The notes beneath the pieces are model-generated. The model saw nothing but the letters and a program-made list of their open reading frames with translations, had not been told where the DNA came from and did not search any database. From positions 310,001-374,000 of the forward strand of contig NZ_FOMS01000001.1 in assembly GCF_900112685.1 (NCBI RefSeq): DNA of 64,000 nt. The letters run 5' to 3'. Positions 14,420 to 14,832 of this stretch are shown piece by piece. Positions within the stretch are counted from its first letter, which is position 1, and each line of letters opens with the position of its first letter. This DNA comes from Roseivivax sediminis. Lineage in GTDB: Bacteria > Pseudomonadota > Alphaproteobacteria > Rhodobacterales > Rhodobacteraceae. Position numbers and translations under genes: made by a program.

Positions 14420-14434
14420 GTTCACTACCTGTTC
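14420..14434 (+). promoter_or_regulatory. Alphaproteobacterial LexA (SOS) box
   Basis: GTTC-ACTACCT-GTTC matches exactly the GTTC-N7-GTTC direct repeat recognised by alphaproteobacterial LexA. It ends 5 bases before the ATG at 14440 of the DnaE2-like fragment. Its position over the probable promoter/start region means bound LexA would block transcription or initiation of that gene. The match is by eye; a chance exact match is possible but the context (dnaE2 family) makes it credible. Confidence 0.72.
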
Positions 14435-14439
14435 TCATC

Positions 14440-14832
14440 ATGCAGACTGTTCTGCCCCAACCCGGGCGCGGCACCTGGCCGCGCCCGCCCGCCTGCCTGA
14501 CTGCGGCCCGGCTGTTCGAGCCGCCGGAAGGCGCGCGCGTCGCCGTCGCCGGCCTGGTGATCCTGCGCCAGCGGCCGGGGACCGCGAAGGGCGTGATCTT
14601 CATCACCCTCGAGGACGAGACCGGCGTGGTGAACGTGATCGTCTGGCGCGCGCTCTACGAACGCTTCCGCCGGGCGGTGATCGCCGGACGCATGTTGCGG
14701 GTGACCGGCCGGCTGCAACGGCAGAGCGGCGTCACCCATGTCGTCGCCGAAGAGGTGGAGGACATCTCTCCCCTCCTCGACCGCCTGCTGGCCGACCCGC
14801 AGACGCTTTCCCAAGGCGCGGCAAGCGGTTAA
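14440..14832 (+). CDS. Stand-alone DnaE2 C-terminal OB-fold domain
   Basis: A 130-residue protein matching only the extreme C-terminus of the error-prone polymerase DnaE2 (ImuC). The OB-fold region [56 protein letters not shown] and a closing LEDL-like [12 protein letters not shown] is characteristic. No PHP, polymerase or helix-hairpin-helix region precedes it; upstream is the divergent ferredoxin gene. The frame is open and undamaged, has its own ATG and a LexA box immediately upstream. There is no Shine-Dalgarno, so a leaderless message is possible. Either a conserved orphan gene or a residue of a deleted imuA-imuB-dnaE2 cassette. Confidence 0.8.

Follow-up and report, generated by a model that had tools for sequence, protein, structure and literature searches.

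The locus analyzed here raises the question of what a gene might do that encodes only the last domain of the error-prone DNA polymerase DnaE2 and begins just behind an SOS operator. It could be the remnant of a larger gene or a small protein with a job of its own. The gene lies in a 64-kb stretch of DNA, which we call the window. Our preferred answer, to which we assign a probability of about 0.78, is that dnaE2 underwent an ancient fission, and that the separate, boxed OB gene completes an otherwise OB-less DnaE2/ImuB mutasome in trans.

The window gene and its SOS box

The box and the frame are located as the original prediction had placed them (Table 1). The box GTTCACTACCTGTTC ends 5 nt before the ATG at 14440, and the 130-codon frame ends at 14832. 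The protein matches the OB family PF01336 in Pfam (E 5.7e-13), and its best NCBIfam match is the DnaE2 model PRK05672 (positions 942-1041 of 1047, E 1.1e-33), which ranks ahead of DnaE1-type models. These matches agree with the claim that the frame holds the last DnaE2 domain alone. The PRK05672 score of 116.5 bits is under the whole-protein cut-off of 939, which a single domain would not be expected to reach. The polymerase core (PHP, Pol3, HhH) is absent from this chain and is encoded on another contig, C10. Given this and a length of only 130 aa, the window protein is therefore not a DnaE2 on its own. Its closest OB match, among the best 80 of 440 candidates in named records, is from Roseivivax sp. 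GX 12232 (90%).

The box is the only exact GTTC-N7-GTTC match within the window. Because 1.57 such matches are expected by chance per 64 kb, the window box alone is weak evidence.

Table 1. Features at the OB locus, in window coordinates.
Feature	Position	Strand	Basis or remark
LexA/SOS box GTTC-N7-GTTC	14420..14434	+	Exact match, letters GTTCACTACCTGTTC
Stand-alone DnaE2 C-terminal OB-domain gene, 130 aa	14440..14832	+	PF01336, PRK05672; open in orthologues; purifying selection in close pairs
Codons 13-17, N-terminal motif WPRPP	14476..14490	+	Kept in the stand-alone forms, missing from the fused ones
OB fold core, residues 33-109	14536..14766	+	Pfam match 34-109, AlphaFold2 model, columns common to fused and stand-alone forms
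Divergent 2Fe-2S ferredoxin-like gene	13998..14324	-	Upstream neighbor and synteny marker, outside the mechanism

Further upstream, window positions 12982-13605 hold what we take to be an RNase T2-like gene, with a start resembling a signal peptide. Between it and the ferredoxin gene, facing copies of a GCCTCCGGCGGGAGTATTT-like repeat were seen by eye at 13624-13650 and 13868-13895.

An OB-less DnaE2 core in the same genome

With the DnaE2 model as query, the window's genome yields a DnaE2 on contig C10 whose match runs from profile position 7 to 944 of 1047 and then stops. The window frame covers positions 942-1040 in the same search, so that the two together make up one DnaE2 with almost no overlap. 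The core on C10 is 999 aa long from the chosen ATG, ends in ...LRRHPVALLRHILTPGSA and retains the catalytic motif PDIDVD. The remaining DnaE2-model match in this genome scores in the range of the replicative DnaE1, and no other close match came from searching the genome with the OB protein. Searching with the OB domain only had led to the reading that this genome is without DnaE2, which was dropped when the full-length family model revealed the OB-less core. We speak of a split DnaE2 where an OB-less core and a stand-alone OB domain with complementary ends occur in one genome, and this is what the window's genome contains.

The original prediction also raised the possibility of a full imuA-imuB-dnaE2 cassette elsewhere in the genome. 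Instead, there are four pieces, of which the dnaE2 piece is OB-less: OB, dnaE2 core, imuA and imuB are on four contigs (C1, C2, C10 and C11). A similar scatter is seen in a genome with a single 3.79-Mb contig (G005), where imuB is at about 0.69, OB at 0.86, imuA at 0.90 and dnaE2 at 3.33 Mb. In some genomes imuB adjoins dnaE2, as in G039, where the two are divergent.

All 31 genomes with either half of the split DnaE2 have an imuB match, and an imuA match was found in each of the 19 such genomes among the 61 that were searched for it. The ImuB query was named by its position directly before a full dnaE2, and it reaches Y-family (DNA polymerase IV) models only below their cut-off. The ImuA query fits the ImuA model weakly (26.8 bits, cut-off 150), but its place before imuB supports the name. 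ImuB is longer in the split clade (ORFs of 547-561 aa at L218, L219 and L225 versus 490 aa in the plasmid-type query), and many genomes have extra sequence near query residue 159. Upstream of imuB in some full-type imuB-dnaE2 cassettes (L179, L181, L182) is a gene that resembles the SRAP/YedK type; a GTTC-N7-GTTC box is present at its start.

Distribution of the two halves

We searched 101 genomes for OB and for DnaE2, 61 from the same family and 40 from other families. DnaE2 ends fall into two sharp classes, at about 1037-1047 (OB fused) and at 938-962 (OB absent). Within the family, 29 genomes have both halves, one has the core only (G052), one has OB only (G059) and 30 have neither. These 30 comprise 26 genomes with a full DnaE2 (visible only from position 355 in G030), three with none and one with an OB match at a contig edge (G029). 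In these counts, a contig-end piece in G017 is taken as part of a full gene, and an OB relic in G010 is not taken as stand-alone. Among the matches listed for the 40 genomes of other families, none is an OB match in a short frame.

A full DnaE2 and an intact stand-alone OB gene occur together in only one of the 101 genomes, that of Dinoroseobacter shibae (G043), which keeps the OB-less core too; its full gene is on a replicon of 126,304 bases. This pattern bears on one of the functions suggested in the original prediction, in which the small protein competes with DnaE2, acting as a brake that binds ImuB or the clamp in its place. A DnaE2 domain that is made separately behind an SOS box would suit such a role. 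However, the resident DnaE2 of split genomes has no OB domain of its own to compete with, and apart from D. shibae no genome with a full DnaE2 carries an intact stand-alone OB gene. We therefore regard a brake as very improbable. The suggested conserved, SOS-boxed protein stands, and competition is unlikely, since the genome's sole DnaE2 is without exactly this domain. For the same reason, we prefer completion of DnaE2 in trans.

A broader scan of named genomes considered the best 80 of 440 candidate OB loci and is thus biased to close relatives, some of them identical to genomes of the first set. The stop-to-stop frames of these 80 loci are 124-343 aa long. In 71 of the 80 genomes a DnaE2 end lies at the OB border (38 + 28 over the model cut-off, the rest as pieces, one of these in Roseovarius mucosus), none has a full DnaE2, and nine have no DnaE2 end. 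Eight of these nine are records labelled as MAGs, including one with an unassigned N-terminal piece at a contig end (G178). The genomes are not independent, because co-occurrence mostly reflects one inherited event. As to a stand-alone OB gene on plasmids, the plasmid records with an OB match number 803. Among the 30 listed, the match is inside a gene annotated as error-prone DNA polymerase in 25; two of the other five records are unannotated, and three have no annotated gene under the match.

Trees and gene order

A tree of 80 DnaE2 cores has a single branch with all 48 OB-less cores on one side and the 32 full proteins on the other (SH-aLRT 100). The OB-less label requires one change on this tree, versus an average of 25 changes for shuffled labels. 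The tree is of a quick kind, and one genome (G041) has a long branch and an uncertain placement. The OB tree, although built from few columns, likewise separates 103 stand-alone from 32 fused domains by one branch (SH-aLRT 99). Several independent truncations are unsupported, since a single label change suffices on each of the two trees.

Gene order is also shared. Among the best 80 of 440 OB loci, the same 2Fe-2S ferredoxin gene is upstream on the opposite strand in 78, and a gene for a DegP-type protease is downstream in 53. The ferredoxin name is putative, given by resemblance. In light of the one-branch trees and the common synteny, the pattern is most simply explained by a single fission and mostly vertical inheritance thereafter. 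In the very divergent G041 (L123, L167, L226; assembly size 1.9 Mb, completeness 74%), dnaE2 is likewise OB-less and the OB gene stands alone behind an exact box, which suggests that the fission is old.

SOS boxes and a candidate promoter

Stand-alone homologues with an upstream box, which the original prediction proposed to look for in Rhodobacteraceae, were found. An exact box lies between -150 and +30 nt of the aligned start in 98 of the 103 distinct stand-alone OB genes; three others have a box with one mismatch, and two have none. As a control, the flanks of 80 OB loci contain ten exact boxes in 680,662 bp, or about 0.0022 per 150 nt. A box with at most one mismatch is found at 46 of 48 OB-less dnaE2 genes (exact in 15) and at 4 of 32 full dnaE2 genes (exact in 2). 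An exact box precedes imuB at 12 of 12 loci, sampled from 12 of the 31 genomes with either half, and imuA at 18 of the 19 loci, which are all those found for such genomes. An OB match at a contig edge (L034) was left out of the OB set, as were nine imuB loci cutting dnaE2 (L178-L187 without L184) from the OB-less set; L125 was dropped as a duplicate of L158, and identical sequences were counted once. The OB-less dnaE2 of G021, whose in-frame match begins only at profile position 88, has no assignable box at its start. Judged by their letters, the OB, dnaE2 core, imuB and imuA genes fit the direct-repeat box (GTTC-N7-GTTC / GAAC-N7-GAAC) of the predicted alphaproteobacterial LexA regulon.

At 85 stand-alone loci the box ends 1-3 nt ahead of the start, assigned as the first in-frame ATG after the box. 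When aligned, these loci have a TTG about 18 nt ahead of the box and a TATNTT within it, which could be read as candidate -35 and -10 elements, respectively. With a -10 element inside the box, transcription is therefore predicted to start at about the ATG, and the message would be leaderless. The window copy departs from this family pattern: its box is exact, but its -10 is poor and its spacer measures 5 nt. The leaderless promoter may thus not be valid in the window's genome.

Selection, N-terminal motif and fold

Close pairs of OB genes show purifying selection. In the 14 OB pairs with dS < 0.3, dN/dS is 0-0.27, and so not near 1, the value that the original prediction had named as the mark of a remnant. 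Several of these 14 pairs come from Boseongicola-type genomes that are closely related among themselves. Pairs at dS 0.1-1.5 have a median of 0.28 and a maximum of 0.92, which saturation and GC bias make unreliable. The proposal that the gene is not a dead fragment but a conserved, selected small protein behind an SOS box is thus upheld by the boxes and by these ratios. The opposite view, that it is a chance remnant whose box and start are fortuitous, could appeal to the 1.57 exact boxes expected in the window. We reject it as having next to no chance of being correct, given a box that is conserved in 98 of 103 genes well beyond the flank control, one syntenic site with the ferredoxin neighbor in 78 of the best 80 of 440 loci, and the low dN/dS of the 14 pairs.

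Fused and stand-alone OB domains have 26 conserved columns in common. Near the N-terminus, 97 of 103 stand-alone forms have a W-x-x-P-P pattern versus none of 32 fused forms; W13 is present in 99, P16 in 101 and P17 in all 103 of the stand-alone forms. This pattern is a candidate docking motif. Net charge exhibits no clear difference between stand-alone and fused OB domains.

An AlphaFold2 model of the OB protein is a confidently predicted OB fold with five strands (mean pLDDT 87.1, pTM 0.77), and its Foldseek matches are the OB folds of AspRS, STN1 and RPA. A sequence search of solved structures gave weak matches only, the best being RPA14 (E 0.017) and Pol III alpha (E 0.026). DNA binding by the OB protein is plausible in view of the fold predicted by PF01336, AlphaFold2 and Foldseek.

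Exceptions and a possible separate role

A few genomes deviate from the common pattern. One (G010) has a ferredoxin 94% identical to that of the window and two full dnaE2 genes, with no OB-less dnaE2 and with no imuA or imuB beyond those two cassettes. Beside the ferredoxin gene it has an OB relic with neither box nor start (L122, G010:C14:11000-19000, about 3620-4120). The dnaE2 of Roseovarius mucosus (L114) is spread over two frames, possibly due to a sequencing error, and the OB gene there has neither a box nor the ferredoxin neighbor. These two cases suggest that the OB gene is retained for the split dnaE2. Conversely, in G059 the OB gene is open and boxed and imuB also has a box, yet there is no DnaE2, which counts against a subunit acting in trans. 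The genome with the core only (G052) has an OB-less DnaE2 and no OB domain even by profile search. Its best ferredoxin match is 46%, versus 73-94% in 14 other genomes, and its OB locus is probably unassembled, because the usual ferredoxin neighbor is missing as well.

A mirror-tree comparison of 23 genomes is a weak test. The correlation between OB and DnaE2 (r 0.66) is below that of the control pair, DegP and DnaE2 (0.70). The partial correlation is 0.42 for OB and DnaE2 (0 of 2000 permutations as high), versus 0.27 for the ferredoxin control.

These exceptions matter for the idea that, after the fission, the OB protein took on a role independent of DnaE2 as a small SOS-induced protein binding single-stranded DNA, like RPA14 or STN1, and that DnaE2 works OB-less. 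The boxed OB gene of G059 is in line with this idea, as are the fold matches to generic nucleic-acid OB proteins, the N-terminal motif that evolved specifically in stand-alone forms, and the fact that some DnaE2s described in the consulted part of PMC3919608 have no OB domain. However, in genomes that have lost the split dnaE2 or have it broken, such as G010 and R. mucosus, the OB gene has decayed or moved; its 26 conserved columns are still common to the OB domains of fused DnaE2s, and it is almost completely co-retained with the OB-less core. We consider a DnaE2-independent role unlikely but not negligible.

A proposed two-piece DnaE2

We return to the reading in which the OB protein completes DnaE2 in trans. 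Its observed basis is that the halves are complementary, have one origin and are inherited together, that boxes and selection are present, and that the core has its catalytic motif. We infer from this that LexA controls the genes in vivo, that the two pieces bind each other, and that the OB protein has a role in translesion synthesis. Going by the anatomy of the genes, the OB protein is most likely an SOS-induced subunit that restores the OB function of the mutasome in trans. Many marine roseobacters thus probably build their DnaE2 from two pieces under separate control.

The proposed course of events is as follows. Within the Rhodobacteraceae, in their roseobacter part, a single ancient fission would have detached the C-terminal OB domain from dnaE2, leaving a core that keeps the catalytic part and ends at the domain border. 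The dnaE2 core, OB gene, imuB and imuA are now at different sites, nearly all of them behind a LexA-type box. Upon DNA damage, LexA would be cleaved and the promoters of the separate pieces would open. The OB protein, consisting of the OB fold and the new WPRPP N-terminus, would dock non-covalently on the OB-less DnaE2/ImuB mutasome and provide the nucleic-acid contact that the fused OB domain gives elsewhere.

A stronger version is that this is a two-piece C-family polymerase in which an unlinked, LexA-gated core and OB subunit assemble only in damaged cells, through the new WPRPP docking. This version is tentative, and we would put it somewhat short of even odds. If it is true, then the level of the OB subunit, probably made from a leaderless SOS transcript, sets how strongly the mutasome engages DNA, and mutagenesis requires several SOS promoters to fire at once.

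To our knowledge, the role of the DnaE2 OB domain appears to be little explored. In these genomes the domain is naturally separated, and it can be deleted, overexpressed or mutated with the catalytic chain untouched. The genomes themselves are also to be read differently: DnaE2 need not be decayed where it has no OB domain, and a small, anonymous OB protein probably belongs to the SOS mutagenesis machinery of a large marine clade.

Comparison with known systems

We found no account of a separately encoded DnaE2 OB domain in the open-access literature searched, and earlier notice may exist. The domain-architecture section of Timinskas et al. 2013 (PMC3919608), as far as it was covered, does not mention a separate OB gene. 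LexA sites are predicted in D. shibae in PMC6473078, and the stand-alone OB gene is not named among them in the part of that source considered; the terms imu, dnaE, polymerase and OB-fold are absent from its main text. The portion of PMC7305329 that was covered contains nothing relevant, and the eLife 2023 paper on the mutasome (PMC10421592) has no terms for OB or C-terminal domain. PMC9426580 names the cassette on the D. shibae plasmid. For Phaeobacter inhibens, strong covariation of imuB and dnaE2 is reported, and both are placed in one operon, in the sections of PMC10883770 considered.

According to the covered parts of PMC3919608 and PMC6511836, DnaE2 acts with ImuA and ImuB in SOS translesion synthesis; the latter describes the imuA-imuB-dnaE2 cassette as contiguous in many bacteria and as split into imuA'-imuB and dnaE2 in mycobacteria. 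The roseobacter system resembles this mutasome in its gene families, its LexA-type boxes and the DnaE2 catalytic motif of its core. Unlike in the cassette, its pieces are at separate loci, dnaE2 is divided at the OB border, and OB has its own boxed gene.

Several DnaE2 sequences without an OB domain are noted in the consulted part of Timinskas et al. 2013 (PMC3919608). The roseobacter core is OB-less like the DnaE2 and DnaE3 variants treated in that part, but its OB domain is a separate gene in the same genome. The sections considered of Timinskas and Venclovas 2019 (PMC6511836) report the C-terminal domain of ImuB (ImuB-C) as a stand-alone protein in SOS operons. This is a further case in which part of the mutasome is also found as a small protein by itself, although the roseobacter piece is the OB domain of DnaE2 and thus a different domain of a different subunit.

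Finally, cyanobacterial DnaE, as described in the part of PMC3919608 covered, is split by an intein and is likewise a C-family polymerase made from two genes. The roseobacter halves differ in that they would not be joined by an intein: the 130-aa piece consists of the OB domain and a short N-terminus, and its length probably leaves no room for an intein half, so joining would be non-covalent.
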